A stretch of 64,000 nt of DNA from Sphaerochaeta pleomorpha str. Grapes (GCF_000236685.1 NC_016633.1:2728001-2792000); one strand, 5' to 3'. Positions 35,220 to 50,932 are shown, counted from the first letter of the stretch. Translations and numbers: made by a program. The notes: generated by a model not told the origin, from the letters alone.

Positions 35220-35927
35220 TTATTCTGGGATGATTCTCCGGTTCTCGCCAACCAGACCGATATGGACTCCCTGGGAAACAAGTTGTTGACGCTCAGGGTG
35301 GGCTATCATCCATTTGTTTTTCTTGAAAAGAAGGCGTCCTTCGGGGTCAGGGCAGGTCTTGAGCAGTTCTTTTCCTTCTTCATCCAAAGGTTCGTTTGTA
35401 TGAAGGGGGAGTACGATGATTGATTTGAAACCTTTTCCCCTGACCGTACAGGGTGCCAGATGCATGACATTTGCATAGATGAGGGACACCGATCCCTTGG
35501 GAAAGAAAAACACCTCGGCATCCTGGGTCCGTACGGTATTGAATTCATTCAAGTTCTCAAACGAGCAGAGAAACTGGACGCAGTCGGTTACTGCGACGAA
35601 GAGTTCGGGGCTTTTATGGTATTCCATACCATTGATAGTCTGGTTCGTCCCGTTGCAGTACCCTACCTGGATAGGCATATTGCCGAAATAGGTACCAAAC
35701 TGCCTGGACACTGTACAGTCCTCCAGTCCTTTCAGGCCAGGTTCGTAGATATTGCCTTCTTCTGGAATCGCCGTCAGATTGTCTGCCGTTTCAACCAATT
35801 CCGATACGTCCATACCTTTGAGTATTCTTCCGTATTTTCTGAACCGGGAAGAATCCAACGTGAGAATCATGGTTTCTTTGTTTGCAGAAGCCAGTTTTTC
35901 CGGAATACTGAAATATCTATCTTTCAT
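35220..35927 (-). CDS. DUF4867-type protein, candidate sulfoquinovose isomerase
   Basis: The 235 residues contain GYCNGTNQTINGMEYHKSPE and ANVMHLAPC segments that I recognise as the DUF4867 family, a cupin-like fold. E102, H104, E108 and H156 are possible metal ligands. From memory, a member of this family (SqvD) is the isomerase converting sulfoquinovose to 6-deoxy-6-sulfofructose in transaldolase and transketolase sulfoglycolysis. That role fits the operon: it lies 9 bp after a TauE-type exporter and last in the minus-strand set. The family call is from pattern memory, and the reaction is inferred from context. Confidence 0.65.
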   Translation of the reverse strand: MKDRYFSIPEKLASANKETMILTLDSSRFRKYGRILKGMDVSELVETADNLTAIPEEGNIYEPGLKGLEDCTVSRQFGTYFGNMPIQVGYCNGTNQTINGMEYHKSPELFVAVTDCVQFLCSFENLNEFNTVRTQDAEVFFFPKGSVSLIYANVMHLAPCTVRGKGFKSIIVLPLHTNEPLDEEGKELLKTCPDPEGRLLFKKNKWMIAHPERQQLVSQGVHIGLVGENRRIIPE

Positions 35928-35936
35928 TTCACACCT

Positions 35937-36674
35937 CTAAAAAATGAGCATAAAAAGACCGGTGAGCAAGAGCATGGAAAAAACGATGAGGGAAAACGTA
36001 CGTGCGTTGACCTTGTCATGGATTTTTTCGCCTGCAAAGATGCCCACAAGCACAAAAGGTACAAGATAAGCCGTTGTTTTTGCAACCGGGGCCGTAAAAG
36101 ACCCTTCTTTCAAATATACTGCAATGAGAATTGTATTGAGCGTCGTCCAGAGCAGACACAGGGTTGCCCTGAATTTTCCCTTGTCAGGGATATTCCTTGA
36201 TGCATACAGCACAACCAGAGGCCCTCCTGAAGAAAATATGCCATGGATTACCCCTCCTGCGATAAGCAAAAGGTAGTAGGGTAGGGCTTTCTTTCCGACA
36301 AGGGGTTTCTGAATTGAGTTTGTCCTGGATAATCTGATCAGCTGCCAGACAGAGACAATACAGATGAATATTGCCAGAATCAACTTCAATCCACCGCTGT
36401 CTATCGACCGGAAAAGATACATGCCGATGGGTAACCCGATAAGCATGAATCCTGCGATGATTGCAAATTGTTTCCAGTCAATGTACTTCCGCTTGGTAAT
36501 AGCAAAGTAGGCAGCAAGTATCCAAGCCAAGACAGTGATGACCATAACCCCGGTTCTCATACCCAAAAGACCTGTTACGAAGGGCATCGCCAGCACTGAG
36601 CAGCCGAACCCGGTAACAGCCTCGAGGGTATGGGTAATGAATACTACGATACCTGAGAGAATGATTGGACTCAT
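35937..36674 (-). CDS. TauE/SafE-family sulfonate exporter
   Basis: An integral membrane protein of 245 residues with about seven or eight spans. The N-terminal LSGIVVFITHTLEAVTGFGCSVLAMPF and the later GGVIHGIFSSGGPLVVLYAS repeat are the two glycine-rich family motifs. Family members export organosulfonates or sulfite. In this operon the likely cargo is isethionate, the end product of sulfoacetaldehyde reduction. It overlaps the alcohol dehydrogenase gene by 4 bp. The cargo is inference. Confidence 0.85.
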   Translation of the reverse strand: MSPIILSGIVVFITHTLEAVTGFGCSVLAMPFVTGLLGMRTGVMVITVLAWILAAYFAITKRKYIDWKQFAIIAGFMLIGLPIGMYLFRSIDSGGLKLILAIFICIVSVWQLIRLSRTNSIQKPLVGKKALPYYLLLIAGGVIHGIFSSGGPLVVLYASRNIPDKGKFRATLCLLWTTLNTILIAVYLKEGSFTAPVAKTTAYLVPFVLVGIFAGEKIHDKVNARTFSLIVFSMLLLTGLFMLIF

Positions 36675-37852
36675 AGTTTCTTACCGAGCATTTCGTACAA
36701 GGGTTTTTCCCTCATAGGAGGAAGCTGGTTAAGCATCTTCGGGTCGGTGAAAGATCTTTCGAACGTAGCCTCGATTTCCTGTTTCTCTAGAGAGACCCCC
36801 AAGTCCGTGAAAGTCTGGGGTACTTTCATTTCCGCTATCAAAGAAGCAATGGTAGAACGGAGGGTTTCAATCAGTTTCGTCTCGTCTGAAATTTCCGGAT
36901 TGAAATGTGAGGAAATCCTGGCAAGGGAAGAACGGTTCTGTTTTTCTTGGCAGGCCCAGTCGAATACCTCCAAAAGCGTGAATGCACAGGCAGCGCCATG
37001 GGGTACATGCCATTCCTCTGAGAGGATGAATGAAATAGCGTGGCCACTTGCAGTACCGGTAATGTTGAACGAGATACCTGCAAGGCAAGAAGCATTGAGC
37101 ATTTGTTTCTGGAGTTCTTTTCTGTCTTCCTTCTTCTCTACAATAGCACGATAGAGTTTAGGCAGGGTGGTCAATACTTCGATGGCAGCCTGTTCTGCAG
37201 CCAATCTCGTTATCGCCGTTGCATTCTTGTTCCAGATAGATTCCAAGGCATGGTCAAGGGCATCAAGGCCTGTGGAGGCACACAGGGAAGCAGGGATCGA
37301 GTCAAGGAAAGAACCGACCAGCAATGCCGTGTGAGCATGCATAAGAGGAGAGCCCAGAGTGTATTTTCTTCCCTTGGGGTCGGTATAGACACCGACTTTT
37401 GTAACCTCGGACCCGGTACCTGCTGTTGTGGGTATAAGCACAAGAGGAAGGTTCTTTTCGGTAATCTTCCTGCTTGGGGTATTCCCGAGGTAATCTTCCA
37501 GGCTTCCTTTGTTGGTTGTAAGCATTGCCAGGGCTTTTGCAGAGTCAAGGACACTGCCACCCCCGATTGAAAGGATGATATCGGCAGTCTCGAATTTCCC
37601 GGTAGCATACATTTCCATGATGTCGGTACACAGGGGGTTGGGACGCACAGTATCAAAAATCGAAACAGAACAGCTTTCCTTGAGTTCGTTGATAAGCTCA
37701 TCCCTTCTCGGGATAGGTGCTTTGTCGCAGACTATTGCAACGTTTAAATCCTCTCGTTTGCCAGCGGCAAACGAAAGGATATGTAAAAGTTGGTCTTTTG
37801 AGAGGTCCTCAAAGGAAAGGATATGCACATTGCTGAGCAAACTTCCTATCAT
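36671..37852 (-). CDS. Iron-containing alcohol dehydrogenase, candidate sulfoacetaldehyde reductase
   Basis: A group III alcohol dehydrogenase of 393 residues. The NAD-binding GGGS motif is at 97-100, the substrate/NAD PTTAGTGSEVT segment follows, and metal ligands appear in GLDALDHALES and HAISFILSEEWHVPHGAACAF. In taurine-degrading Bilophila the reductase SarD that makes isethionate from sulfoacetaldehyde belongs to this family. Here the gene follows an RpiB-like isomerase by a 4-bp overlap and precedes a sulfonate exporter, which supports the same reaction. Other small aldehydes remain possible. Confidence 0.88.
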   Translation of the reverse strand: MIGSLLSNVHILSFEDLSKDQLLHILSFAAGKREDLNVAIVCDKAPIPRRDELINELKESCSVSIFDTVRPNPLCTDIMEMYATGKFETADIILSIGGGSVLDSAKALAMLTTNKGSLEDYLGNTPSRKITEKNLPLVLIPTTAGTGSEVTKVGVYTDPKGRKYTLGSPLMHAHTALLVGSFLDSIPASLCASTGLDALDHALESIWNKNATAITRLAAEQAAIEVLTTLPKLYRAIVEKKEDRKELQKQMLNASCLAGISFNITGTASGHAISFILSEEWHVPHGAACAFTLLEVFDWACQEKQNRSSLARISSHFNPEISDETKLIETLRSTIASLIAEMKVPQTFTDLGVSLEKQEIEATFERSFTDPKMLNQLPPMREKPLYEMLGKKL

Positions 37853-38319
37853 TTGAAATTCTCCTCTTCAAGTGCCTTGACCTGGTTGAACGCATTGGTA
37901 AGGAATTCTTTTTTGAACTCCATCTTCTGGGTAAATTCCATTCCCAGCCAAGCTTCTACGATCTGGCAACCCAAGAAGGGGGCAGTGATCCAGCCGCCGA
38001 GGGTGATGACATTGGAGTTGTTTACGATCTTGGCACGTTCGCCAGAGAAGATATCATCGACTACACAGGCATAGACACCCTTGAACTTGTTGGCAACGAT
38101 GGCCATTCCCTGTCCTGTCCCGCAGATAAGGATTCCTTTTTCTGCTTTCTTCTCCTGGATAGCCTTTGCTACCTTGGGAGCCTGGATAAAATAGGGCTGG
38201 GGTTTGTCTGCGGATTCAATGCCGAAATCAATGATGTCCATTCCTTTTTCTTTGAGAAACGCGACAATTTCCTGCTTGAGGGGAAAACCTGAGAGATCAG
38301 ATGCAATCGCTATTGTCAT
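37849..38319 (-). CDS. RpiB/LacAB-family isomerase, candidate 4-deoxy-4-sulfoerythrose isomerase
   Basis: A 156-residue RpiB-fold isomerase. The catalytic base Cys66 is kept in ILICGTGQGMAI. Residues I remember as needed for ring opening and phosphate binding in E. coli RpiB are changed: the DH pair of the first loop is D8-L9, His99 is Val, and the GGRHxxR stretch is replaced by TQKMEFK near 130-136. A substrate without phosphate and unable to form the same ring is therefore likely, as expected for SqwI, which converts sulfoerythrose to sulfoerythrulose. AAGGAG before ATG 38319 fixes the start. Confidence 0.82.
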   Translation of the reverse strand: MTIAIASDLSGFPLKQEIVAFLKEKGMDIIDFGIESADKPQPYFIQAPKVAKAIQEKKAEKGILICGTGQGMAIVANKFKGVYACVVDDIFSGERAKIVNNSNVITLGGWITAPFLGCQIVEAWLGMEFTQKMEFKKEFLTNAFNQVKALEEENFK

Positions 38320-38332
38320 GGTACGTACTCCT

Positions 38333-39274
38333 TTAGTTGGTTTCTTTGACCAGTCGGGCAGCCTGGAGGGCAATTTCCTCTGCTGTCATTTTATAATACT
38401 GTTGCAACCAGGCCTGGGTTCCGACCTGTCCGAATTCATCTTGGACACCAACCATTGCCATGCGGGTAGGATGGTTCTTTGCAAGGAAATTGGCAACTGA
38501 ATCGCCGAGTCCCCCACTTACCTGGTGGTCTTCTGCCGTTACGATCCTGCCGGTTTTCTGTGCATAGGCAAGGACCAGTTCCTCGTCAAGGGGTTTTACG
38601 GTGTGCATGTCGATGACTGCTGCCGAGATACCGCTTTCCTTCAGGATTCCTGCAGCCTTGAGAGCCTCAGGGACGAGTATTGCCCCAAGTGCAATGATGG
38701 TTACATCGGGTCCGTCCAGCAATACCTTTCCCTTTCCCAGTTCAAAGGTTTCCCCTTCTGCATAGATAGGTTTGACAGCCTTGCGGTGAAGACGCATATA
38801 GGTGCATCCCTCATGCTTGGCACATGCACGTACCAAAGCTTCCAGAGAGACAGGGTCGGAAGGTTCGAGGATGGTAAGGTTTGGAATGAGCTTCATCATG
38901 CCGATATCTTCAAACGGCATGTGGGTCCCGCCGTTGAAACCTGCCGAAATTCCAGGGTCGGTCCCTACAAGCTTTACATTCAGCCCGGCGTAGTTGGCCG
39001 AAATGAAGAACTGGTCGAATACCCTGCGGGAAGCAAAGCAGCCGAAGGTGGCGGCAAAGGGAATTTTTCCGTCGGCACTCAATCCAGCGCTGACACCGAC
39101 CATGTTTGCCTCGGCCACCCCGACATCGACACTACGCTGCGGATAGACATCCTTGAACTTCATGGTGCCGGTAGCCTTCATGAGGTCAGCTTCTACTACT
39201 ACTATTGCAGGATTCTCACTGGCCAGGTCAATGAGGGTATCACAGTATACTGCACGCATTTCTTTAGTTTCCAT
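38333..39274 (-). CDS. Split transketolase, C-terminal subunit
   Basis: The pyrimidine-binding and C-terminal domains of a two-gene transketolase, 313 residues. The catalytic Glu lies in DVGVAEANMVGVSAGLS, and substrate/cofactor residues include ATFGCFASRRVFDQ. It lies 11 bp behind the N-terminal subunit gene. In a standard pathway it serves the pentose phosphate cycle. In this operon it is the candidate sulfofructose transketolase (SqwGH), which would act twice: on sulfofructose, and on sulfoerythrulose to give sulfoacetaldehyde plus xylulose 5-phosphate. Specificity is inferred. Confidence 0.9.
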   Translation of the reverse strand: METKEMRAVYCDTLIDLASENPAIVVVEADLMKATGTMKFKDVYPQRSVDVGVAEANMVGVSAGLSADGKIPFAATFGCFASRRVFDQFFISANYAGLNVKLVGTDPGISAGFNGGTHMPFEDIGMMKLIPNLTILEPSDPVSLEALVRACAKHEGCTYMRLHRKAVKPIYAEGETFELGKGKVLLDGPDVTIIALGAILVPEALKAAGILKESGISAAVIDMHTVKPLDEELVLAYAQKTGRIVTAEDHQVSGGLGDSVANFLAKNHPTRMAMVGVQDEFGQVGTQAWLQQYYKMTAEEIALQAARLVKETN

Positions 39275-39285
39275 ACCTTTCTCCC

Positions 39286-40107
39286 TTAACCGAGCTCGGC
39301 GATCGCCTTGTTGGCTACCGTCAGATCAAAATTCATATTGTGGTTTGATACCAAACCTTCGCAGAAGGCCGCACCCTTGCCCTTGATGGTATCAAGGATG
39401 ATCATTGAAGGTTTCCCTTCCTGTTGTTTGGCATTCTCGATAGCCTGATGCATCGCCGAATAATCATGACCGTTGACACGCTGTACATACCAGCCGAAGG
39501 TTTTCCACTTGCCTTCAATATCTCCAAGACTCATGATATCGTCGGTGGTCCCGTCGATCTGGAGCTTGTTGTAATCGGTAAAGGCGATGAGGTGGTCAAG
39601 TTTATATTGGGAGGCAAACATCCCGGCTTCCCAGTTTTGTCCTTCCTGTGACTCACCGTCTCCGATGATTGCATAGGTATAGCAGGGATTCTTGTCCATT
39701 CTTCTGGAAAGGGCAAGGCCACAGGCTGCCGAAAGGCCTTGGCCGAGAGATCCTGTGGACATATCGATGCCTGGTGTCTTTAACCGGTCACAATGGCTGG
39801 GAAGGTTTGTTCCACCCTGGTTGAGTGTATCGAGTTCCTTTAGGGGGAAGAATCCAAGGAGGGCGAGGGTTGCATATAAAGCAGGACCGCTGTGTCCTTT
39901 GGACAGGACAAGAAGGTCTCTGTTCTTCCATAGTGGGTTTTTGGGATCCACTTGCATTTCCTGCGCATAGAGGAGGGCAAGGATGTCGACAACCGACAGT
40001 GCTCCTCCGATGTGCCCGACTCCTAGATTACCAATGGTATACAGGGTTTTCTTGCGGATTTCTTTTGCAAAATCCTGAACTTGTTCAAGTGCCTGAGATG
40101 AAAGCAT
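39286..40107 (-). CDS. Split transketolase, N-terminal subunit
   Basis: The diphosphate-binding domain of transketolase, 273 residues. The thiamine diphosphate motif runs from GDGESQEG to DYNKLQ, and an early GHIGGALSVVDILALLY and later SKGHSGPALYATLALLGF supply the substrate-channel His residues. It is the first gene of the six-gene minus-strand operon, 64-bp leader from a consensus promoter. It forms the enzyme with the next gene's product. Proposed substrates are sulfofructose and glyceraldehyde 3-phosphate, from operon context. Confidence 0.92.
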   Translation of the reverse strand: MLSSQALEQVQDFAKEIRKKTLYTIGNLGVGHIGGALSVVDILALLYAQEMQVDPKNPLWKNRDLLVLSKGHSGPALYATLALLGFFPLKELDTLNQGGTNLPSHCDRLKTPGIDMSTGSLGQGLSAACGLALSRRMDKNPCYTYAIIGDGESQEGQNWEAGMFASQYKLDHLIAFTDYNKLQIDGTTDDIMSLGDIEGKWKTFGWYVQRVNGHDYSAMHQAIENAKQQEGKPSMIILDTIKGKGAAFCEGLVSNHNMNFDLTVANKAIAELG

Positions 40108-40120
40108 CGTGTAGCCTCTC

Positions 40121-40143
40121 TTTAGTTACTTAGTGAAAGTAAA
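40121..40143 (-). promoter_or_regulatory. ROK-type operator at the transketolase promoter
   Basis: A 23-bp inverted repeat with arms TTTAGTT and AAGTAAA around 9 bp (plus-strand reading), touching the -10 box and covering the transcription start. It matches sites at 47809-47831 and, less well, 41357-41379. ROK repressors such as XylR bind sites of similar look. Confidence 0.65.
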
Positions 40144-40170
40144 TATATTCCATAATATATGGGTTGTCAA
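40142..40170 (-). promoter_or_regulatory. Promoter of the transketolase operon
   Basis: On the minus strand TTGACA (40165-40170) and TATATT (40142-40147) are exactly 17 bp apart, a near-perfect sigma-70-type promoter. A strong promoter with an operator just downstream is typical of a repressed catabolic operon. Confidence 0.85.
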
Positions 40171-40462
40171 GTTCGACTTTTAGGGTTTTATAGGATATGC
40201 GGGTAAAATGGATATCCCTCATGTATGTATATATGCAAATCAGAAAAGGGCCTATTGCCAAGAAAGAGCTCTGCGTTGGCAGTGCGCTGAACGCTTCCAG
40301 TCATTTGCTTTTGCAAAGGTATCGAAGGCATCGTATTTTGAAGAATTTGGGACATATGCCCGGTAGACAAATAACTAGGTTGTACCCATGCAGCAAATAT
40401 TTGGGTTTTTACAGAATTGTTTCTTCCTTATTATATGATAAGCTTGGCAACTGGAGGTTCTT
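40171..40462. other. Non-coding gap between the divergent transketolase operon and mutarotase gene
   Basis: I see no gene here. The stretch is A/T-rich with short inverted repeats (TGCCAA/TTGGCA at 40256-40281). It holds the mutarotase promoter near its right end. Confidence 0.6.
40408..40436 (+). promoter_or_regulatory. Candidate promoter of the mutarotase gene
   Basis: TTTACA (40408-40413) and TTATAT (40431-40436) are 17 bp apart, 27 bp before the start codon. No copy of the ROK-type operator is seen here. Confidence 0.5.
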
Positions 40463-41308
40463 ATGATTGTTTTGCATACCAAAGATAGTCGTCTGGTTGT
40501 GGATGAGGAATGCGGATTCACCATCACCAGCTGGGAATATAAAGGAATTGAGAGGTTGGTGTTTGACAGAGCACGTATAGCAATGGGTAAAACTAGCGGT
40601 ATCCCGATTCTTTTTCCGACTCCCAACAGGATAAAAGAAGGTACCTTTGTTTTTGAAGGGCAGCGTTATCAGGGTTTTATGCATGGTAGGGTACGTTTTG
40701 AAAGATTTACAGTTCTGCAACAAACTGCAACAACCTGCAAAGGTGCTTTCTGCTGCAGGGAGGGAAATCGAGTGTACGAGACGTTTCCGTTTCTTTTCAC
40801 CCTGACTATTGAAATTGTACTTGGGGAAAAGGGAATATCCTGGCACTTCGAAATTGAAAACCAGGATGATAAACATCTTCCCTTTGGAATCGCAATCCAT
40901 CCCTATCTGAAAAAACTGGGGCCTTCACAGATCAAATGCAGTGCTGAATATGTTATGGAAAATGACAACGATCTCTGTCCTTTGGGTTCCTTAGGCGATT
41001 CTGCTCTTCTTCAGGCGATAGACGTAGAGGAAACGGATCTGGATTTGGTCTTCTATGCAAAAGAGCATGCCGTTGTTACCGAGTTTTTTACAGGGGGAGC
41101 CTGCTATCGCCTTTTTGGGTCCGAGGACTTCCATCATACGGTAATCTATACCCCAAGGCAGGAACCCTTTGTCTGTATTGAACCTCAATCCTGCAGTACC
41201 GATTCAATCAATCTGTATTCCCATGGTTTTTCAAAACTGTCAGGGTTGCAGATTCTTTCACCTGGAGAAAAGAAAAAAGAGCTGATAGCTATTGAGCTTG
41301 GGGAGTAG
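40463..41308 (+). CDS. Aldose 1-epimerase family protein, candidate sulfoquinovose mutarotase
   Basis: A galactose-mutarotase-fold protein of 281 residues. Landmarks are GIPILFPTPNRI, FMHGRVRF with the first catalytic His, AIHPYLK with the second, and EPQSC with the catalytic Glu. It interconverts the alpha and beta forms of a free sugar. In sulfoglycolytic bacteria a mutarotase of this family (YihR-like) handles sulfoquinovose released by the glycosidase. The position between the transketolase operon and transport genes suggests that role, but the sequence alone shows only the family. Confidence 0.85.
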   Translation: MIVLHTKDSRLVVDEECGFTITSWEYKGIERLVFDRARIAMGKTSGIPILFPTPNRIKEGTFVFEGQRYQGFMHGRVRFERFTVLQQTATTCKGAFCCREGNRVYETFPFLFTLTIEIVLGEKGISWHFEIENQDDKHLPFGIAIHPYLKKLGPSQIKCSAEYVMENDNDLCPLGSLGDSALLQAIDVEETDLDLVFYAKEHAVVTEFFTGGACYRLFGSEDFHHTVIYTPRQEPFVCIEPQSCSTDSINLYSHGFSKLSGLQILSPGEKKKELIAIELGE

Positions 41309-41328
41309 ATAAAAAAAAATGAAAAAAG

Positions 41329-41358
41329 TTGACAGAATGACAGAACGCGTGGTTTACT
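41329..41358 (+). promoter_or_regulatory. Promoter of the TTT transporter operon
   Basis: TTGACA (41329-41334) is followed after 18 bp by TTTACT (41353-41358). The operator-like repeat begins at once downstream. Confidence 0.6.
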
Positions 41359-41379
41359 TACTTTATGAAAAAAATTAAA
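41357..41379 (+). promoter_or_regulatory. Probable third ROK-type operator
   Basis: The arms CTTACTT and AATTAAA around 9 bp match the pattern wTTAsTT-N9-AAsTAAA at 12 of 14 positions. It is the weakest of three copies and A-rich, so chance is not excluded. It lies between the promoter and the AAAGGAG ribosome site. Confidence 0.45.
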
Positions 41380-41390
41380 GGAGTTTGTAA

Positions 41391-42392
41391 ATGAGAAACC
41401 GTTTTGCGCTTGTTCTGCTATTGCTCTTATTGGTTCCTGTGTTTGTCTTTGCACAGGGTGGTACTGAAAAATCTACGTCTGCAAGTGGTAATTATTTTGA
41501 TTCTACCGTCAAGATTATCATACCTTATGGGGCTGGTGGTACCCATGATGTAGTGTCCAGAAAGTTTGCTGAAGTAGGCTCAAAATATACCAAAGCCCCG
41601 ATTGTCTGTGAGAATGTCACCGGTGGAGATGGTATTGTTGCCGCAACCCTGTACACAAAGAAAGATAGGAACGTGAAAGAATTGCTTACCACTTCCTATG
41701 GTTTGTGGTATCAGAAGATTGTAAAAGGCGATGCGATCAAGCTTGACCTGGACGAACTGCATCCGATCGGGACCTTTGATGACAGGAGTTACCTCCTCTA
41801 TGTCAGAGCCAATTCATCCTACCAGACACTTGAAGACCTGATTGCCGAATCAAAAACCAGAGAGATCGTATGTTCTGCCGGCGCTGTCGGTTCAGACGCT
41901 CACCTCTGTTTTGGTGGTCTTATCAACCAGGCCGGTGGCAAAAGCCGCATTGCTTCCTATGAAGGCGGAGCAGAGCAGATTAATGCATTGATCAACGGAG
42001 AAGTTGACTGTTTCGTGGGAACCCCCCAGGTTGGCCAGCAGTACTTGGAGACCGGCAAGGTCCGTGCCCTTACCTGTTTCAAAGACTTTGACTACGAAGG
42101 ATTCAAGGATAGCCTTGGTATCGTTGTTCCCAACTGTAGCGATGCCGGTTACCCCAGTTCTGCTATCACAGGCGGCGGTTTCCTCAGTGTCAGAACCGGT
42201 GCTGACCCTCAGATTGTTGCCGATGTCGAGGAATTGATGAAAAAAGTATGGGCCGATCCTGATTTCAGAAACTATACCGTTGAAATCGGTTTGAATGTCT
42301 ACGAAATCTATGGTGAACAACTCCAGGCTCACATCAAGGAAGCTGGAGTAAATGCTACTGCTGCTGCTAAGTCCTTGGGATTGCTTAAATAA
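41391..42392 (+). CDS. TctC-type (Bug) substrate-binding protein of a TTT transporter
   Basis: The periplasmic receptor of a tripartite tricarboxylate-type transporter, 333 residues. A signal peptide runs to VFVFAQGGTEK. The mature protein shows the family pattern KIIIPYGAGGTHDVVSRKFAEV near the start and FVGTPQVGQQYLETGKVRALTCF later. Such receptors bind carboxylates and some sulfonates or sugars acids. AAAGGAG lies 7 bp before the ATG. A hairpin separates it from tctB. Its ligand is unknown; co-regulation with the sulfonate genes makes a sulfonate worth testing. Confidence 0.9.
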   Translation: MRNRFALVLLLLLLVPVFVFAQGGTEKSTSASGNYFDSTVKIIIPYGAGGTHDVVSRKFAEVGSKYTKAPIVCENVTGGDGIVAATLYTKKDRNVKELLTTSYGLWYQKIVKGDAIKLDLDELHPIGTFDDRSYLLYVRANSSYQTLEDLIAESKTREIVCSAGAVGSDAHLCFGGLINQAGGKSRIASYEGGAEQINALINGEVDCFVGTPQVGQQYLETGKVRALTCFKDFDYEGFKDSLGIVVPNCSDAGYPSSAITGGGFLSVRTGADPQIVADVEELMKKVWADPDFRNYTVEIGLNVYEIYGEQLQAHIKEAGVNATAAAKSLGLLK

Positions 42393-42413
42393 TCAGAATT
42401 TTGACGTAAGGGA

Positions 42414-42433
42414 GGGGTTCTGTCCAGAACCCC
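42414..42433 (+). terminator. Attenuator-like hairpin after the TTT receptor gene
   Basis: The arms GGGGTTCT and AGAACCCC, a loop of four bases, then TTACTATTTT. Partial termination here would give more receptor than membrane subunits. Confidence 0.7.
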
Positions 42434-42464
42434 TTACTATTTTGCTAAAAAGGAGGGGACGCAT

Positions 42465-42923
42465 ATGAAAGTAAGATCTAACTTAGTGAGTGGTATTATT
42501 TTTATGGTTCTCGGTGCCGCACTTTTATTATTAATGAAGAGCCAGGTTATTGTGTATGGGGATGTCCCGTTCATCGAAAGTGCTAAGGTTATCCCATTTT
42601 TTGTTGAAGTTATCATGCTTGTTTGTGGTGCTATCCTTGTTATACAGAGCTTGTTCTTGAAAAAAGAAACATATGTGGATATTTGTTGGGCAGAACAAAA
42701 ATATGCTTTGATGATCATTGGAATCTTTGCGGTCTTTGCGACTCTGATCTATTTTGCAGGGTTCATTGTCGGTGCAATTGGATTCATCGTGATGATGGCT
42801 TTCTTTTTCAGAGATAAAAATATTGTGCATATACTAATCCTCGCTGTATTGGCAATTCTCATTTATCTATTGTTTACGAGGGTTTTTAATATAAGCTTGC
42901 CTGGTTTTGGTGAGGTGAGGTAG
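42465..42923 (+). CDS. TctB-type small membrane subunit of the TTT transporter
   Basis: A 152-residue protein with four hydrophobic spans in the TctB pattern: LVSGIIFMVLGAALLLL at the start, then a span after a charged loop, and two close spans near the end. It partners the large TctA subunit, which starts 3 bp later. GGAGG lies about 8 bp before the ATG. Confidence 0.88.
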   Translation: MKVRSNLVSGIIFMVLGAALLLLMKSQVIVYGDVPFIESAKVIPFFVEVIMLVCGAILVIQSLFLKKETYVDICWAEQKYALMIIGIFAVFATLIYFAGFIVGAIGFIVMMAFFFRDKNIVHILILAVLAILIYLLFTRVFNISLPGFGEVR

Positions 42924-42926
42924 AAA

Positions 42927-44450
42927 ATGGTAGATATATTTGGACAAGTTGCAGTGCAACTATTTACTTTGCAAAATTTGTTTTTTGCCGTTGCCAGCGT
43001 ATTTTTAGGCATAATCATCGGTGCAATTCCGGGATTGACGGTTACATTGGGAATAATCCTATTGCTTCCAATGACTTACGGGATGACTCCGATCACGGCA
43101 ATCGTTGCCCTTTTGGGTATTTATGTCGGAGGATGTTATGGTGGTTCTATCAGTGCAATCCTGATAAATATCCCGGGCACAAACTCAGCCCTTGCGACCA
43201 CTCTCGACGGCTATCCCCTGGCAGTCCAGGGTAAAGCCAACAAAGCCTTGAGCACCTCTCTTTTTGCTTCTTGTGTTGGTGGTTTCCTTGGTTCCCTGAT
43301 TCTTCTTTTTGCCGCCCAGCCAATTGCAACCCTTGCAATGAAATGTCGTTCGCCGGAGTATTTTTCCCTGGCTCTTTTCGGTTTGACAGTCATAGCAGGG
43401 GTAAGTGGCGATAGTATCGTCAAAGGCCTGATTTCTGCCTGTGTAGGGATTTTTATTTCCTGCATAGGTCTTGAAAGCCTTACCGGTACGCTGCGGTATA
43501 CCTTCGATTCGATGTTGCTGTTTTCCGGGGTAAGTCTACTCCCTGCATTGATCGGTCTGATTGCCCTGACGCAGGTCCTGATAAAATCAGTGGAAGAAAA
43601 GAGGGCTGTTGCACAAGCCTCAAACGTCAATTTCGTTGAGAAACTGAATGACCCACCGATTAACGGAGCTGAACGCCGTTCCATTATGAAAACCATTTTG
43701 AAATCGACCGGTATTGCAACCATCATCGGGGCGATGCCTGGTGCAGGTGGTGGAGTAGCCTCCTTCCTCAGCTATAATGAAGCCAGAAGAAGCAGCAAGC
43801 ATCCGGAAGAATTCGGAAAAGGCTCTCTGGAAGGCATTGCTGCTGCCGAGTCAAGCAATAATACTGTGGTAGGTTCTGCCATGATTCCTTTGCTTACCTT
43901 GGGTATCCCAGGCGATGGCGTTACCGCTATCTTGCTCGGCGCTTTCATTTTGCATGGGATGCAGCCGGGACCCAAACTCTTTACTGACCAGGCAGTCGAG
44001 ACATACTCTATTATAGTGGGATTGGTAATTTGTAATATTATCCTCTATGTACTCGGTAGGCTCTGCACGAAGCAAATTTCAAGAATCATCAATATTTCCT
44101 ATAAGATTCTTGGTAGTGCCATTGCCCTTTTCTGCTTTGCCGGTGCGTTTGCGAATAGCGGGAGTATCTATGAGATGATTCTCATTGTGCCTCTCGCAAT
44201 TGTCGGTTACTACCTTGGTTTATTGGGCTTCTCTGTAATCCCGATGATGCTTGGGTTGATCCTTGGTCCAATTGTTGAAGTAAACTTTACAAGGAGCATG
44301 ATTGTTTCCTTCGGTGATCCCCTGATATTCTTCAAGGAACCTGTAAGCTGTATTATCTTGGTTTTTGCCTTGATCTTTACTATTTTGGTAATGAAGATGA
44401 ACAAGAAAATGGAACTTGACAATCCTGAAACGGAAGGACTCAGCGAGTAA
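42927..44450 (+). CDS. TctA-type large membrane subunit of the TTT transporter
   Basis: The 507-residue channel subunit with about ten to twelve spans. The two family repeats carry glycine-rich loops: GAIPGLTVTLG near residue 32 with YGGSISAILINIPGTNSA, and GAMPGAGGGVASFLSYNEARRSSKHPEEFGKG followed by IPLLTLGIPGDGVTAILLGAF. It uses an ion gradient to move the substrate delivered by the TctC-type receptor. A FucI-like gene follows 44 bp later. Confidence 0.95.
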   Translation: MVDIFGQVAVQLFTLQNLFFAVASVFLGIIIGAIPGLTVTLGIILLLPMTYGMTPITAIVALLGIYVGGCYGGSISAILINIPGTNSALATTLDGYPLAVQGKANKALSTSLFASCVGGFLGSLILLFAAQPIATLAMKCRSPEYFSLALFGLTVIAGVSGDSIVKGLISACVGIFISCIGLESLTGTLRYTFDSMLLFSGVSLLPALIGLIALTQVLIKSVEEKRAVAQASNVNFVEKLNDPPINGAERRSIMKTILKSTGIATIIGAMPGAGGGVASFLSYNEARRSSKHPEEFGKGSLEGIAAAESSNNTVVGSAMIPLLTLGIPGDGVTAILLGAFILHGMQPGPKLFTDQAVETYSIIVGLVICNIILYVLGRLCTKQISRIINISYKILGSAIALFCFAGAFANSGSIYEMILIVPLAIVGYYLGLLGFSVIPMMLGLILGPIVEVNFTRSMIVSFGDPLIFFKEPVSCIILVFALIFTILVMKMNKKMELDNPETEGLSE

Positions 44451-44494
44451 TTGCCTGCGTTCGGTTTGCTTGCAAAAAAAAATAATGGGAAGTT

Positions 44495-45841
44495 ATGAAT
44501 ATGTCGAATTCAATGAATGTCTTATATGTGCCTGTTGGTGTCGGTACTTTCGATTTGGTCTGTGCTCAGGATCAATTTGAAAAGTCTATTGCCCTGCTAA
44601 GAAACCTCTATCCGGAGGTAATTGTCCCTGAAGAGCCTTTGTTGACCCTTGCAAAACTGAATGCTTTTTTGGATGCCAATAATCCGGATTTTGTTATCGT
44701 ACAGAATATTACGTTCGCAAATTCGGCTTATGTAAGTGAAGTACTTGCTCGTTTTACCTGTCCTCTGTTGCTTTGGACTTTAACCGAACCTATCGTTGAT
44801 GGGGCTCGCTTGCGACTCAATTCCTTGACAGGGGCCTATTCTGCAGCAAATACCATGATGCTTTTGGGCAGGAATGACTTCTTGTATGTGCTTGGAGGCC
44901 CAGAGGATACAAGTGTAATTGCAAAGGTTGGCCAGGCCTTGGCCGCTGTCGGTCTTAGGTACGATCTCAAGGGAATGAAAATGTCTGCTATCGGCCATAC
45001 CCCCCAGGGGTTTGGCTTTGGTAGGGCCCTGGACAGCGAACTGCTGAAGACCTTCTCTGTCCGGCTTGAAAGTATCGAAGTCAGGGAATTGATGGAGAAG
45101 GCCCGTTCCTTCAAGCAGGGGGAGAGCGACCAGTACAAAACGCTTATGGAAGAGAGTACCTGCAACTGTGTGGAATGCCCCCGTGAAAGAATGGAAGATT
45201 CTGCCCATCTCATGCATGCCTATATGGATTATGTACAAGAGAATAACATCAAAGCACTGGCTTCCCGATGCTGGCCTGATTTTTTCACTTCCTACGGGAC
45301 TCCTGTCTGCTCGGTACTTTCTTTGCTCAATGACCAGGGGGTTGCCTCTGTGTGCGAATCAGATATGTATGGAGCCCTATCCCAGTTCGTTGCAAGGAAT
45401 CTGACAAAGAAAAGCTCTTTCTTCGGGGATCCTGTCTATATGGATGAAGAAGCCGGGACCATAACCTATTGGCATTGTGGCATGGCAGCACCTTCTTTGG
45501 CACAAAACAAGTGTGCTTGCATCGGGGTTCATCCCAATCGGAAGATTGGACCGGTCATGGACTTTGCCTGTGCCCCCGAGGAACACGTTACCATCTTCCG
45601 TATCGGAAGAAAGATGGATGGTACCTTCAGGCTTTTCTCTACAAAGGGGAGTGCTTTGGATGTCCCCAAGCAATTTTCGGGAACTTCGGTTGTGGTAAAG
45701 ACTGACCATGATGCAAGGGCCGTTGTGGAAAAAAGTGTAGTCGATGGCTGGGAGCCTCATTTTGTTGTTGCCTATGGCGATATCCAAGAGACCCTCGCTA
45801 TGTTTGCAAAAATCATGCATATCGAGTTCTGCGCCTATTAA
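44495..45841 (+). CDS. L-fucose isomerase-like sugar isomerase
   Basis: A 448-residue protein of the fucose/arabinose isomerase superfamily. The metal-binding pattern ASVCESDMYGALS (E288, D290) and YWHCGMAAPSLA (H327) are visible. These enzymes convert aldoses to ketoses using Mn2+. The natural substrate is unknown. It follows the TTT transporter and may share its operator-controlled transcript, so it could act on what that transporter imports. It could also be an alternative sulfoquinovose isomerase beside the DUF4867-type protein. The FucI family is normally 590 residues, so this is a shorter branch. Confidence 0.82.
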   Translation: MNMSNSMNVLYVPVGVGTFDLVCAQDQFEKSIALLRNLYPEVIVPEEPLLTLAKLNAFLDANNPDFVIVQNITFANSAYVSEVLARFTCPLLLWTLTEPIVDGARLRLNSLTGAYSAANTMMLLGRNDFLYVLGGPEDTSVIAKVGQALAAVGLRYDLKGMKMSAIGHTPQGFGFGRALDSELLKTFSVRLESIEVRELMEKARSFKQGESDQYKTLMEESTCNCVECPRERMEDSAHLMHAYMDYVQENNIKALASRCWPDFFTSYGTPVCSVLSLLNDQGVASVCESDMYGALSQFVARNLTKKSSFFGDPVYMDEEAGTITYWHCGMAAPSLAQNKCACIGVHPNRKIGPVMDFACAPEEHVTIFRIGRKMDGTFRLFSTKGSALDVPKQFSGTSVVVKTDHDARAVVEKSVVDGWEPHFVVAYGDIQETLAMFAKIMHIEFCAY

Positions 45842-46156
45842 TCAGTACTCTCCCTTTCCCCGATTTCTTGTGGTTGAGGAATTGATTGACTGTTCACCAC
45901 GTTCTATGTTTTTATATGTAGGGGGTGGTGAATCTTTATCTGATCCTTTTGCGGGGGTCTGGCTACTTGATAGATAGGATTTCTGTATCTGATACATCCC
46001 AACCGAGACAACGGCAGGAAAGCGAGGGGGTGACAAAGGTCCTTGCAATTCAATAAAGGCAAAGATTCTGCTTTATGAATAATAGCGGATAGTAAACTCA
46101 CTTCTTGTGGATTTTTTCATAGGAAGGGGGTAGACTGATTTAGTATGGAGGATGTA
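45842..46156. other. Non-coding gap before the ROK gene
   Basis: I see no gene. A hairpin with arms TTCACCAC (45893-45900) and GTGGTGAA (45925-45932) around a 24-nt loop may end the TTT operon. No clear promoter for the ROK gene is found. Confidence 0.5.
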
Positions 46157-47323
46157 ATGCAAGGAAATCCGCTGAGAGCTTCTGATTTACGAGTGCACAA
46201 CCAGAATATTGTCTTATCCCGGATTCATGCTTCCCAGACAGTAGGGACATCCCAATCTGAAATAGTCCAGGCTACTGGTTTGAAGGCCCCTACGATTTTC
46301 AGGATTTTTTCTTCCTTGGAAGAAGAGGGTCTGATCAGATCGATTTCCAATGACCTCGAAGAGGGGGCCTTGGCTAAAAAGGGAAGGCGCCCAGTCAATT
46401 TTATCGTATGTAAGGATGCCCGGTATTCGATCGGGATTGAATTCTGGACCGCCTATCTTTCCATCGGGGTTTTTAATTTTCTGGGAGAACGAATTTACTC
46501 GAGCATGCATCCGCTTGCAGATAGGGTAACTGCCGATGAGGTTGTTTCGCTCATCGTCAAGCAAGTCAAGGAAATAATTGAAGAACTGAACATTCCCATG
46601 GAGAAAATGCTTGGCCTTGGGGTGGCAGCCCCCGGGCAGGTTGACCTGGCACAAAACCGGGTTGCCTATTATCCTCGTATTGTAGGTATGAAAAATTACC
46701 CTATCGTGGAGGTCCTTCAACAACAGCTCTCCCTTCCGGTAATCCTTCACAACAATTGCTCGGCCCTGGCTTTCAGTGAATATCGCTATGGTGGTTTTGA
46801 CCATGATGGTTCCATGTTTACCTTCCTGTTGAGAACTGGGGTGAACGGGGCCTTTGTCCATGATGATGTTATTTATACCAATAGCAAATCCCTTACCATT
46901 GAGACAGGGCATATCCCTATCAATTTTGATGGTCCCCGTTGCAGTTGTGGTTCCCGCGGCTGTCTTCAGGCCTTCCTGCAGGACCTCGATCCAGATTCTG
47001 TGGACAACCGCCTGGCTTTGTTCGAAGGGCTGGATGCAAAACTGAAGGATAATGATTTGCAGGCGCTGAGGACTATTGAACGGGCTGCAGGATATCTTGT
47101 AATTGCCATGAAAGTAATCATGCGGTTCCTTGCTCCGAAATCATTCCTTTTTGTTGGTTGCTCAGCTACGGTTTCGGAAGCGATCTGTAATCAGGTGCGA
47201 CGTTTGATTTCTGAACCGGACGCTTTTGAAACTGCCCCCCCTAAAATATTTGCTACCTCATACGATCCTTTGCTCGCACAAAAAGGCGCCTCTGATTTGG
47301 TTTTGGTAGATTTCTTCAGGTAG
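46157..47323 (+). CDS. ROK-family transcriptional regulator
   Basis: A sugar-responsive repressor of the NagC/XylR type. An N-terminal winged helix (TSQSEIVQATGLKAPTIFRIFSSLEEEGLI) is followed by the ROK sugar-binding domain. The zinc-binding motif GHIPIN...CSCGSRGCLQ is intact. The kinase catalytic motif NDAN is replaced by NNCS, and the phosphate loop reads IGIEFWT, so it should bind sugar without phosphorylating it. ATG 46157 with GGAGG just upstream is preferred to 46145. It lies between the TTT and ABC operons, whose promoters share a palindromic operator, making it the likely local regulator. Confidence 0.9.
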   Translation: MQGNPLRASDLRVHNQNIVLSRIHASQTVGTSQSEIVQATGLKAPTIFRIFSSLEEEGLIRSISNDLEEGALAKKGRRPVNFIVCKDARYSIGIEFWTAYLSIGVFNFLGERIYSSMHPLADRVTADEVVSLIVKQVKEIIEELNIPMEKMLGLGVAAPGQVDLAQNRVAYYPRIVGMKNYPIVEVLQQQLSLPVILHNNCSALAFSEYRYGGFDHDGSMFTFLLRTGVNGAFVHDDVIYTNSKSLTIETGHIPINFDGPRCSCGSRGCLQAFLQDLDPDSVDNRLALFEGLDAKLKDNDLQALRTIERAAGYLVIAMKVIMRFLAPKSFLFVGCSATVSEAICNQVRRLISEPDAFETAPPKIFATSYDPLLAQKGASDLVLVDFFR

Positions 47324-47340
47324 CAGCGTCTTCTTTCTCA

Positions 47341-47372
47341 AAGGGGAAGGCGCTTTCCCCAAACTCTTTTTT
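47341..47372 (+). terminator. Terminator of the ROK gene
   Basis: The arms GGGGAA and TTCCCC around GGCGCT, followed by AAACTCTTTTTT, begin about 18 bp after the ROK stop. Confidence 0.8.
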
Positions 47373-47767
47373 GCGGATACCCCTGGTCACCTTACACCTC
47401 ATGTATAAGCCTGCAGCTAACGCGTACAGTACGCGGTCGACCAGGTTCACAATCTTTCTATAAAATCTTTGAACCCAATTACGTTACAGATGGTTGGTTC
47501 GGCTTTTTCCATTGATTTCAATCGATGTCTTGGATGTAGCTTCTTGGGAGGTTTTTGAATGGTTTCCCTTTGGGGAAAGGCAGGCAGGAATATTCCAATC
47601 TACATTTGCGTGTTGTACCATTCAGATAGTGATTTTAAGTAAGATTTTTACAACATTCGTAATGAATTCTGGTAAATATTTAGTGAATATTAGAGTGCCA
47701 CTGTTGATTTCTTAATGTATTTGGTCGTAATTGAATGTTTATGAATATTTGTATTTAGAAAAAAACA

Positions 47768-47797
47768 TTGACAGTCAGTAAAAACCATGGTTACACT
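47768..47797 (+). promoter_or_regulatory. Promoter of the ABC importer/sulfoquinovosidase operon
   Basis: TTGACA (47768-47773) and TACACT (47792-47797) are 18 bp apart, 51 bp before the receptor start. Confidence 0.7.
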
Positions 47798-47808
47798 GAT
47801 ATAGTGAA

Positions 47809-47831
47809 ATTACTTTCTATAAGAAACTAAA
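47809..47831 (+). promoter_or_regulatory. ROK-type operator of the ABC importer operon
   Basis: The arms ATTACTT and AACTAAA surround 9 bp. Aligned with the transketolase operator (opposite strand) 18 to 19 of 23 bases agree, including the runs TTACTTTC and AACTAAA. It lies just after the transcription start, where a repressor would block elongation or initiation. Confidence 0.65.
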
Positions 47832-47848: not shown

Positions 47849-49117
47849 ATGTTGCGTAAATCAAAGACACTGGCAGTGTTGCTCGTAGTTCTTTCGTTGG
47901 TTTTCCCTCTGTTCGCACAGGGGCAAACCGAAGCATCAACCCCGAAGGAAGTTGAACTTCGATGGGCAAGCATCTGGGTAGGCAATGATAGCAAGGCCCC
48001 TGCAGTAGAGGCATTGGTGAATGAATTCAACGCCGCAAATGCAGGAAAAATCAAAGTTGTCATCGAGCCTCAGCCCGATTACAATGCGTATGAACAGAAA
48101 GTCCGTACTTCCCTGGCAGCCGGCCAGGCCCCTGCGGATATCTTCACGATCAAATTCAATCCTACAACTGCTACGTTCTACCAGTCAAAATTGCTAATGG
48201 ACTTCGCAAAAGTAATGGATTCCGAGTGGAAGTCAACCTTTGACGCAGGCTCTTTGGCCCAGTCAACCGTAGATGGTGTTCTCAGATCCCTCCCGATGGA
48301 AGTTGCCATTCTGCCCATCTGGTACAACATGGACGCTTTCAAGTCAGTCGGTGTTACCTCAGTACCAAAGACCATGGATGAGTTGATGAGCGCATTCGAC
48401 AAGCTGAAGGCTGCAGGAATTGCCCCTTCGAGTCAGATGACTGGCGATACAAACGCTTGGACTTCCATGATTTGGTTCTCCCACCTTGCAGTCTCCCTCG
48501 GCGGAGTCAATGTCTGGGACAAACCCTTTACTGATCCTGCTTTCGTCCAGGCAGCTACCATCTTGAAGAAGGTAATTACCGATTATTCTACCGCTGATGC
48601 AGTAGGCCTCGGTGCAGGTGGAAGCGGCGGGCATTTCCTTGCCGGACGCACTGCCGTGTTCTCCAACGGACCTTGGTATGCCGGTCGTGCAGACCTTGCG
48701 GCTACCCCGTTCTTCAATTCGATCAAGATTGACAAGCTTGCCCCTGCCGGGTCAACCTCTGATTTCATGATCAGCCGCCTGCAGGCAAATATCTGTGCAG
48801 CCTCAACGAATGACAAGGCTAAAGAAGCAGCTATCCTTGAGTTCATGAAGTATTTGACCAGCAAGGCAAGTATCGCCCGCATTGCAGAATCCTCTGGTGC
48901 AATGTTTGCAATCAAGTCCGGTTACATGCCCGTCAAACCGCTCCAGAAGCAGTTCTATGAACTGGCCAATTCTGTTTCTGCAACCTCTTTCGACCTTGAG
49001 GCAGCCCTTGGTGCCGAAGTTACCCTTGAGTTTGCCCAGCAGCTTGGTGCCCTTGCCCTGGGGAATATCACCCCTGAAGAATTCTGTGCCCTGGTTGACA
49101 GGAAGATTGAACGCTAA
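47849..49117 (+). CDS. ABC sugar-binding protein, candidate sulfoquinovose-glycoside receptor
   Basis: A family 1 extracellular solute-binding protein of 422 residues. The signal peptide ends near FPLFAQGQTEA. Typical segments are VVIEPQPDYNAYEQKVRTSLAAGQAPADIF and GRTAVFSNGPWYAG. It is the first gene of an operon with two permeases and a sulfoquinovosidase-type GH31 enzyme, so the expected ligand is sulfoquinovosyl glycerol or sulfoquinovose. AAAGGAG precedes the ATG. The ligand is inference from context. Confidence 0.9.
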   Translation: MLRKSKTLAVLLVVLSLVFPLFAQGQTEASTPKEVELRWASIWVGNDSKAPAVEALVNEFNAANAGKIKVVIEPQPDYNAYEQKVRTSLAAGQAPADIFTIKFNPTTATFYQSKLLMDFAKVMDSEWKSTFDAGSLAQSTVDGVLRSLPMEVAILPIWYNMDAFKSVGVTSVPKTMDELMSAFDKLKAAGIAPSSQMTGDTNAWTSMIWFSHLAVSLGGVNVWDKPFTDPAFVQAATILKKVITDYSTADAVGLGAGGSGGHFLAGRTAVFSNGPWYAGRADLAATPFFNSIKIDKLAPAGSTSDFMISRLQANICAASTNDKAKEAAILEFMKYLTSKASIARIAESSGAMFAIKSGYMPVKPLQKQFYELANSVSATSFDLEAALGAEVTLEFAQQLGALALGNITPEEFCALVDRKIER

Positions 49118-49127
49118 AAGTCTTTAT

Positions 49128-49154
49128 AGCCACCATCAAGCAATGATGGTGGCT
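49128..49154 (+). terminator. Attenuator-like hairpin after the ABC receptor gene
   Basis: A perfect 11-bp stem, AGCCACCATCA with TGATGGTGGCT, around a 5-nt loop, followed by a pyrimidine tract ending in TTTTT. It probably lowers expression of the permeases relative to the receptor. Confidence 0.75.
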
Positions 49155-49185
49155 TCAATTCCCCCTTTTTCTGAGGAGTCCAAAC

Positions 49186-50079
49186 ATGCAGGCAAACAGC
49201 AAACGAGGTAGAACAATTTGGGGTGGAAGGATACTTTTCCTCCTTCCTGTTTTCCTGTTCTTCTTTTTCTTTTATCTTTACCCGTTCGTTTTCACCATTT
49301 TTACCAGTTTCACTTCTTGGCGTGGCATTGGTTCCATGAAATTCAACGGATTACACAACTATGTGAAATTACTCTCAGACCCTACTTTCAGAAAAGCCCT
49401 TGGAAACAACATCATCTGGGCTCTCTGCCAAGGTTTCATACAGGTTCCCCTTGCCTGTCTCGTTGCCATGATTCTTGTTCGTAAGCCGAAAGGCTGGAAA
49501 TTCCTGAGGACGGTGTATTACCTTCCCAATGTAATCTCGACAGTAGCCTTGGCGATGGTCTGGGTTGCCATTTACAATGTCACAGGACCCTTGAATTTTA
49601 TTTTGGAAAAACTGTTCGGCATGGAAAGCAAAAACTGGCTCGGGAATCCCGATACTGCCTTGTTTTCTGTTATTTTCCAGACCGTTATCTATATTGGTTA
49701 CTTTATGATAGTTCTCCTTGCCTCTGCGATGAATATTTCCCGTTCCCTCTACGAAGCAGCAGAGATTGATGGGGCGAATACCCTGCAACAGGAGATTCAT
49801 ATCACCCTCCCCATGTTACGCGGAAGCCTGATCACTACCATGACGTTGGCAATGGCTTATGGAATGAGGCATTTTGAGTCCACCTTCCTGATGACAGGGG
49901 GAGGCCCTGCCTATTCGACAACCACCATGGGTATTGACCTGTACCTGAAGATGGATGCCCTGCGTTACAGCGAAGCTAGTACTGCCGGCGTATTCCTCAT
50001 CTTGTTGGGTACGGTGGTCATTACGCTTCTCAGAAAGCTCTTCGGGAAATCTGACCCGATGAGCGATATGGCACAGTAG
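49186..50079 (+). CDS. ABC sugar permease (MalF type)
   Basis: An inner-membrane permease of 297 residues with six spans. The EAA loop that contacts the ATPase is EAAEIDGANTLQQEIHITLP near residue 190. GAGGAG lies about 8 bp before the ATG. No ATPase gene is in the operon, so a shared MsmX/UgpC-type ATPase from elsewhere is expected. Confidence 0.93.
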   Translation: MQANSKRGRTIWGGRILFLLPVFLFFFFFYLYPFVFTIFTSFTSWRGIGSMKFNGLHNYVKLLSDPTFRKALGNNIIWALCQGFIQVPLACLVAMILVRKPKGWKFLRTVYYLPNVISTVALAMVWVAIYNVTGPLNFILEKLFGMESKNWLGNPDTALFSVIFQTVIYIGYFMIVLLASAMNISRSLYEAAEIDGANTLQQEIHITLPMLRGSLITTMTLAMAYGMRHFESTFLMTGGGPAYSTTTMGIDLYLKMDALRYSEASTAGVFLILLGTVVITLLRKLFGKSDPMSDMAQ

Positions 50080-50089
50080 GAGGCTTGGT

Positions 50090-50932
50090 ATGAAAGTAAA
50101 ACATAGTACCCTATGGGTTTTTGGCAATACGCTCAAATGGATTCTGTTGCTTGTGCTGCTGGCCCTTGCACTGCTTCCTCTTATCTGGCTCTTTATCAGT
50201 TCGCTCAGGACAAACCTCGAATTACAGGTTTCCCCTTTTGGACTGCCTGAGAAATTGCAGTGGTCGAACTATAAAAATGCCTTGGCCATGGCGAGTCTTC
50301 CCCGATTGTTGTTCAATTCGGTTTTTGTCGCTGCCTGTGCGGTAATCCTGAATATGCTGGTTACGGCTATGGCCGGTTTCATCCTTTCCAGGGAACACTT
50401 CAAGGGTAGGGATATAATCTATACTGTTTTGACTGCAGGGGTTTTGGTACCAGTTATTTCATTTATGGTTCCCTACTTTTCCCTGATAACCCATACCGGT
50501 CTTTACAACACCCTTTTTGCGTTGATCCTTGTCTATACTGCGGTCAATATCCCCGTTTCCATCTTTTTGGTTACTGCTTTCATGAAAAGCATTCCCAAGG
50601 AACTTGAAGAGGCGGCGATTATCGATGGCTGTGGTTTTCTCAAGCGTTTCACCAAGATTATTCTTCCTTTGTCACGTTCGGGGCTAGTCACTGCAGGGAC
50701 TTTTTGTTTCATCTATTCCTGGAATGAATTCCTCATGGCCATGTTGTTGACATCCAGTATTGAGGCAAGGACTATCCAGCTTGGGATCAAGTTCTTCTCA
50801 AGCCAGTTCATTACCGATTACAGCAGTATGTATGCTGCAGTTATCATTACCATTATCCCGAGTGTTGTCGGATATGTGATGCTGCATGACAAGATTATCG
50901 GCGGACTTACCGCCGGAGGGGTTAAAGGCTAA
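50090..50932 (+). CDS. ABC sugar permease (MalG type)
   Basis: The second permease, 280 residues with six spans and the EAA loop EEAAIIDGCGFLKRFTKIILP near residue 170. The characteristic ending GLTAGGVKG is present. It follows the first permease by 10 bp and precedes the GH31 gene by 2 bp, so import and hydrolysis are probably coexpressed. Confidence 0.93.
   Translation: MKVKHSTLWVFGNTLKWILLLVLLALALLPLIWLFISSLRTNLELQVSPFGLPEKLQWSNYKNALAMASLPRLLFNSVFVAACAVILNMLVTAMAGFILSREHFKGRDIIYTVLTAGVLVPVISFMVPYFSLITHTGLYNTLFALILVYTAVNIPVSIFLVTAFMKSIPKELEEAAIIDGCGFLKRFTKIILPLSRSGLVTAGTFCFIYSWNEFLMAMLLTSSIEARTIQLGIKFFSSQFITDYSSMYAAVIITIIPSVVGYVMLHDKIIGGLTAGGVKG

Follow-up and report, generated by a model that had tools for sequence, protein, structure and literature searches.

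A shared palindromic operator and its putative ROK-family repressor at the sulfoquinovose genes of Sphaerochaeta pleomorpha

Introduction

Sulfoquinovose (SQ) is a very abundant plant sulfur-sugar and belongs to the largest organic sulfur pools, and the anaerobic sulfo-transketolase (sulfo-TK) route supplies isethionate to sulfide-forming bacteria. A stretch of 64,000 nucleotides from Sphaerochaeta pleomorpha str. Grapes (GCF_000236685.1, NC_016633.1:2728001-2792000), called the window here and used for all positions unless a contig (C1) or locus is named, carries by homology a complete sulfo-TK gene set with predicted enzyme activities on sulfofructose, sulfoerythrulose and sulfoacetaldehyde, and among these genes lies one for a ROK-family protein. 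An initial annotation of the window had pointed to a 23-bp palindrome at the promoters of the transketolase, the ATP-binding cassette (ABC) transporter and probably the tripartite tricarboxylate transporter (TTT). The question raised by this locus is whether the palindromes are operators, and if so which protein reads them and which genes they govern. Our study indicates that they very probably serve as operators for the ROK protein, the gene of which lies at 46145-47323 and which would repress the SQ genes until a sulfosugar binds.

Results

The exact pattern wTTAsTT-N9-AAsTAAw was found twice in the window (40121-40143 and 47809-47831) against 0.01 copies expected, and none of 100 shuffles contained two. 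In transcribed-strand reading these copies are TTTACTTTCACTAAGTAACTAAA and ATTACTTTCTATAAGAAACTAAA, respectively, and they are identical at 19 of 23 bases, as had been counted earlier (18 to 19). The weaker copy which the initial annotation had seen before the TTT genes does exist, but its register (41357-41379) was off by 4 bp, the site being 41353-41375 with a profile score (see below) of 24.7 as compared to 14.9. With two mismatches allowed, the plain pattern does not stand out in the window (6 copies vs 2.75 expected), and the TTT site therefore rests on profile and comparative evidence. The three sites are as follows.

40121..40143, minus strand: Operator 1, sqwGH operon, TTTACTTTC-ACTAA-GTAACTAAA; exact pattern match; profile score 31.6, genome rank 1
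41353..41375, plus strand: Operator 2, TTT-isomerase operon, on the minus strand ATTTTTTTC-ATAAA-GTAAGTAAA; held-out profile score 24.7, among the genome's top five
47809..47831, plus strand: Operator 3, ABC-sulfoquinovosidase operon, ATTACTTTC-TATAA-GAAACTAAA; exact pattern match; profile score 28.3, genome rank 2

In the whole genome (3,590,853 bp, one contig) the exact pattern is present at three places, where base composition predicts 0.35. The third place, C1:633168-633190, is located 2.1 Mb from the window between two further genes.

L015:6146-8143 (G000:C1:631148-633142): second GH31 gene (GH31-2), sulfoquinovosidase family; PRK10426 704 bits, cut-off 553
L015:8349-9824: GPH sugar symporter gene, sharing with GH31-2 the intergenic region that holds C1:633168-633190

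With one mismatch the plain pattern showed no enrichment in the genome (14 places vs 24 for the reversed control); it is too loose beyond exact matches, and a weighted profile was therefore needed. The profile was trained on 30 distinct sites from relatives, with the S. pleomorpha sites held out. It amounts to 24.4 bits with the consensus wTTAcTTTC-nnTAA-GwAAsTAAw, and its dyad lies at position 12 (symmetry score 15.8 vs 2.7 for the next centre), so that the relatives' sites support the centre first read from the window. A XylR-like 10-5-10 register (TTAsTTACTT-N5-AAGTAAsTAA), suggested by overlapping half-sites before the isomerase gene in some relatives, was also tried and was rejected, because symmetry favours position 12 over position 10 (2.7) and the GH31-2 sites fit 9-5-9 only.

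The held-out scores in S. pleomorpha were 31.6 for sqwG, 28.3 for ABC, 25.3 for GH31-2, 24.7 for TTT and 20.8 for GPH. The chance level was estimated by simulating a genome of equal length (3.59 Mb) with a third-order Markov model, in which no position scored at least 20 and three scored at least 18. When the training sites were made into an Infernal sequence model, its top five places in the genome were the five SQ promoters (E 0.0045, 0.024, 0.11, 0.26 and 1.1), and 477 kb of relatives' DNA gave 58 profile matches at a score of at least 18 against 2 with the reversed profile. The concern raised at the outset, that there might be many unrelated genomic matches, was not borne out, as all three exact matches lie at SQ genes and the five best profile places are all SQ promoters. 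A regulon of five units is thus supported, comprising the sqwGH operon, the TTT-isomerase operon, the ABC-sulfoquinovosidase operon, GH31-2 and the GPH symporter. The local regulon proposed earlier stands for the SQ units of the window, but the regulon is not only local, because the second SQ locus 2.1 Mb away carries a site and belongs to it. A sixth genome match at L016:11489-11511 (G000:C1:2491488-2491510; score 18.5, E 2.0) is at chance level and was left out, about three such scores being expected per genome.

The sites were then compared with the distribution of the ROK gene.

46145..47323 (start may be 46160), plus strand: ROK-family regulator, proposed operator reader; Pfam ROK PF00480, 2.9e-27

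Of the 26 genomes of the genus, 16 have an orthologue of this gene, and 12 further orthologue-bearing genomes were found in the family, with identity down to 34%. At E 0.1 or better, the site was present in all 16 genus genomes having the ROK gene and in none of the 10 lacking it, which strengthens the earlier naming of the ROK protein as candidate regulator. In the family, the site was found in 24 of 28 genomes with an orthologue and 7 of 111 without (Fisher 8e-17, a value uncorrected for shared ancestry of the genomes and partly circular, as most ROK-positive genomes supplied training sites). These 7 of 111 are close to the chance rate at E 0.1, lying for example upstream of a DnaK-looking protein in G029 and G063, and were hence not accepted as real operators.

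Every genus member with the sqwG promoter on its contig has the site 13-14 bp before the start of the transketolase gene, and the S. pleomorpha site there has the same letters as several of the relatives' sites. A second site lies upstream of the isomerase-ABC-sulfoquinovosidase (SQase) operon in the relatives where the promoter is readable, including G108 with its mis-called isomerase start. Orthologues of the GH31-2 locus in G106, G108, G113 and G114 carry one site before GH31-2 and another before the GPH gene. In G090 the site precedes both the TTT operon (L072) and the isomerase-DUF4867 genes (L157), and in G121 it precedes a GPH-like symporter gene (L156). Two genomes outside the training set also carry sites, namely G025 (L154) before its isomerase, ABC and transketolase genes (scores 33.0, 24.5 and 24.3) and UBA6089 (Spirochaetaceae, L169) before its transketolase and isomerase genes (both 31.2). 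In most relatives the ROK gene is the divergent neighbour of sqwG. Among the 80 ROK relatives listed, no like cluster was found beyond Spirochaetes, and only Spirochaete loci carried one.

Some points weigh against the ROK protein as repressor of these units. Most matches in ROK-positive genomes come from the training genomes, the independent ones being only S. pleomorpha, G025, L169 and some sites of G090 and G121; the relatives also share ancestry, so that the Fisher values are not phylogeny-corrected. The ROK gene of S. pleomorpha has no operator site of its own, and the sixth match (C1:2491490), at chance level, stands before a sugar ABC operon that is unrelated and has a LacI-type gene of its own. 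Finally, we infer the binder, the repression and the identity of the ligand alike, the case for the binder coming from co-occurrence and conservation.

The sites may also be operators that are read by another factor, either a paralogous ROK protein or an unlinked regulator. The GH31-2/GPH locus, with no ROK gene alongside, would fit such a reader, and the binding of the window's ROK protein is likewise our inference; however, the site keeps company with this very ROK gene in the genus (16/16 vs 0/10), the ROK gene is present in nearly every site-bearing cluster, and G099, G109 and G110 of the genus, which possess an SQase-family gene and lack the ROK orthologue, have no site. Another reader is thus considered improbable.

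The ROK protein encoded in the window, the preferred reader, has an AlphaFold2 model with pLDDT 90, and its best full-length match is the operator-bound Lmo0178 (5f7q; Z 36.4 over 369 residues), with Mlc close behind. Weak MarR_2 and IclR helix-turn-helix (HTH) matches mark its N-terminal winged HTH, for which the model gives helices at residues 12-29, 37-44 and 48-60; the recognition helix is GLKAPTxFRIF. The ROK zinc motif GHx9-11CxCGxxGC is present (GH255-256, CSCGSRGC 266-273) and is kept in nearly all orthologues. The kinase residues are lost, with EFWTA at the DxGGT position (ATP loop), and the product is therefore predicted to be a regulator rather than an enzyme.

The position of the catalytic Asp is occupied by Asn204 in 21 of 21 SQ-associated orthologues, whereas 57 of 73 other ROKs have Asp there. 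The SQ-associated orthologues likewise all have Arg230, where 49 of the 73 others have Gly, and Trp101 and Asn234 are nearly invariant. As the conserved Asp of ROK kinases normally faces the sugar 6-OH, Asn204 and Arg230 are proposed to read the C6 sulfonate. There may be an even chance that a ROK kinase fold serves here as a dedicated sulfosugar sensor, in which Asn204 and the phosphate-loop Arg would read the C6 sulfonate of SQ or sulfofructose instead of a 6-OH or phosphate, and that through it the dispersed units of a sulfo-TK regulon in Spirochaetes are coordinated.

The sign of control was considered from the position of the operators in the promoters, which were read from sequence.

40142..40170, minus strand: sqwG promoter, TTGACA (40165-40170), N17, TATATT (40142-40147)
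41329..41358, plus strand: TTT promoter, TTGACA (41329-41334), N18, TTTACT (41353-41358)
47768..47797, plus strand: ABC promoter, TTGACA (47768-47773), N18, TACACT (47792-47797)

Operator 1 and the sqwG -10 overlap by 2 nt, the first six bases of the TTT operator (TTTACT) are the TTT -10 box, the operator of the GPH symporter promoter (TTTACA-N17-TATTAT) begins inside its -10, and the ABC operator begins 12 nt after its -10. An overlap with the -10 or a position close downstream is usual for repressor operators. Since all sites lie on the -10 or a short way behind it, the geometry suggests a negative sign of control, and repression by the ROK protein appears to be the best explanation. Some ROK proteins, such as NagC, are generally known to activate at some promoters, and activation by the ROK protein from these sites may be envisaged; however, an activator would be expected to bind upstream of their positions. 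Moreover, the sites of Caldicellulosiruptor bescii XylR (ROK) and of other repressors, located in 5' untranslated regions or over promoter elements, have been read as repressor sites (PMC8579813), and activation is very unlikely in our case. A reading in which no operator but an extended core promoter or a leader-RNA element has been conserved can practically be dismissed: the sequence is AT-rich and sits in the -10/+1 region, but it has dyad symmetry about a single clear centre, its distance from the -10 is not constant (it starts within the box at sqwG, TTT and GPH but 12 nt behind it at ABC) and the remainder of the genome lacks it.

In the proposed mechanism of repression, a ROK dimer would occupy the -10/start region of each promoter in the absence of substrate and block RNA polymerase. 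The ligand, which may be SQ, its glycoside or sulfofructose, would bind to the degenerate sugar-kinase domain, whereupon the dimer would leave the operators and the genes for uptake, hydrolysis, isomerisation and transketolase would be made together.

The other genes of the SQ locus are given below.

35220..35927, minus strand: DUF4867 protein, last gene of the operon; Pfam PF16161 1.1e-70
35937..36674, minus strand: TauE/SafE exporter, SqwE-like; Pfam TauE 3.3e-25
36671..37852, minus strand: SqwF-like iron alcohol dehydrogenase, sulfoacetaldehyde reductase candidate; Pfam Fe-ADH 1.1e-34
37849..38328, minus strand: SqwI-like RpiB isomerase; Pfam LacAB_rpiB 2.1e-39
38333..39274, minus strand: SqwH-like transketolase C half; NCBIfam 5.2e-76
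39286..40107, minus strand: SqwG-like transketolase N half; NCBIfam transketolase 2.5e-74
40463: aldose epimerase, between the sqwGH operon and the TTT genes
41391..44450 (41391, 42465, 42927), plus strand: TTT genes, by gene order; G090 homologues of 57-76% identity
44495..45841, plus strand: SftI-like SQ isomerase; NCBIfam NF048012 366 bits, below the cut-off of 700
47849..50932, plus strand: sugar ABC transporter, binding protein and two permeases; NCBIfam
50935..52956, plus strand: SQase of YihQ type, GH31; PRK10426 911 bits (cut-off 553), E. coli YihQ structure match 4e-228

The split sulfofructose transketolase, RpiB-like isomerase, iron alcohol dehydrogenase and TauE exporter lie in one operon (35220-40107), the order of which is kept in most relatives' clusters. 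In nearly all relatives the DUF4867 gene (PF16161) comes last in the sulfo-TK operon, and in G090 it adjoins the isomerase gene. An NCBIfam scan gave no match for the genes at 41391-44450, which we take to be TTT genes following the initial annotation and general knowledge. Their operon carries the SQ operator here as well as in G090 (L072), which suggests a sulfonate or SQ cargo for such transporters. In alignment, YihQ and the window enzyme share the Arg of FGKRxxWNW, but GH31-2 carries Gln at this position; GH31-2 may act on a different sulfoglycoside. G099, G109 and G110 (L093, L089 and L091) possess an SQase-family gene with neither ROK orthologue nor operator, and there the gene is regulated otherwise.

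In the relatives about 120 bp separate the divergent ROK gene and sqwG. This intergenic region, as found in G111, is split in S. pleomorpha, 61 nt aligning to 40113-40172 and 48 nt to 46092-46139, and an epimerase-TTT-SftI module of about 5.9 kb sits between the two halves. The isomerase gene placed between ROK and ABC in the relatives is absent from S. pleomorpha, and no remnants of it were found between these two genes. The module insertion and the lost isomerase apparently represent a non-orthologous isomerase replacement. After the split, the operator remained with sqwG, the ABC operon kept its own and the TTT unit has one too.

Discussion

The operator defined in this study can be used as a search tool, and it has already connected a TTT transporter, a GPH symporter and a second SQase-like gene with the SQ pathway. 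It also makes the ligand of the sensor and the residues of its pocket directly testable.

In comparison with the known ROK repressors, Lmo0178 (5f7q, operator-bound) and Mlc (1z6r, 3bp8) share the two-domain fold of the window protein, matching it over 349-369 residues (Z 32-36), and have the N-terminal HTH and the zinc motif as well. Their identity to the window protein is only 16-21%, however, and its helix GLKAPTxFRIF together with W101, N204 and R230 is unlike most other ROKs, the targets being sulfosugar genes.

The operator of Bacillus subtilis XylR is TTAGTTTGTT-TGGGC-AACAAACTAA, of 25 bp in a 10-5-10 arrangement (PMC12034463). A ROK repressor (putative in our case), a T-rich/A-rich inverted repeat and a 5-bp centre are common to both systems, whereas the arms here are of 9 bp (TTTACTTTC) instead of 10 with other inner letters, the full pattern being TTTACTTTC-N5-GwAAsTAAA, and all five S. 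pleomorpha targets are SQ-type genes with no xylose genes among them. The XylR-type likeness noted earlier is therefore a matter of the style of the box (half-sites 9-5-9 vs 10-5-10). Membership in a XylR (xylose) regulon was rejected, as both the 25-bp 10-5-10 architecture and xylose targets are missing; the system is very probably a new ROK-repressor regulon.

Escherichia coli CsqR (YihW) is a local repressor of SQ genes with SQ reported as its effector (PMC10991401). It resembles our proposed system as a local repressor of SQ catabolic genes, but it belongs to the unrelated DeoR family and serves the sulfo-Embden-Meyerhof-Parnas pathway, not sulfo-TK. A CsqR-type (DeoR) SQ regulator was rejected, since Pfam and the fold of the window protein give ROK.

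The sqw genes of the sulfo-TK pathway are known from Clostridium sp. MSTE9. Such sqw systems share by homology the enzyme set of SQase, isomerase, split transketolase, RpiB isomerase, iron alcohol dehydrogenase and TauE exporter. The pathway has been reported in Spirochaetes (PMC12890257), including Sphaerochaetaceae (PMC13219744), and a word search of these two texts brought up no description of a regulator. Among the papers searched for sulfoquinovose together with 'ROK family', none mentioned both. Beyond the known sqw systems, our study proposes a regulator, its operators and a regulon, and adds the TTT transporter and a second SQase locus.

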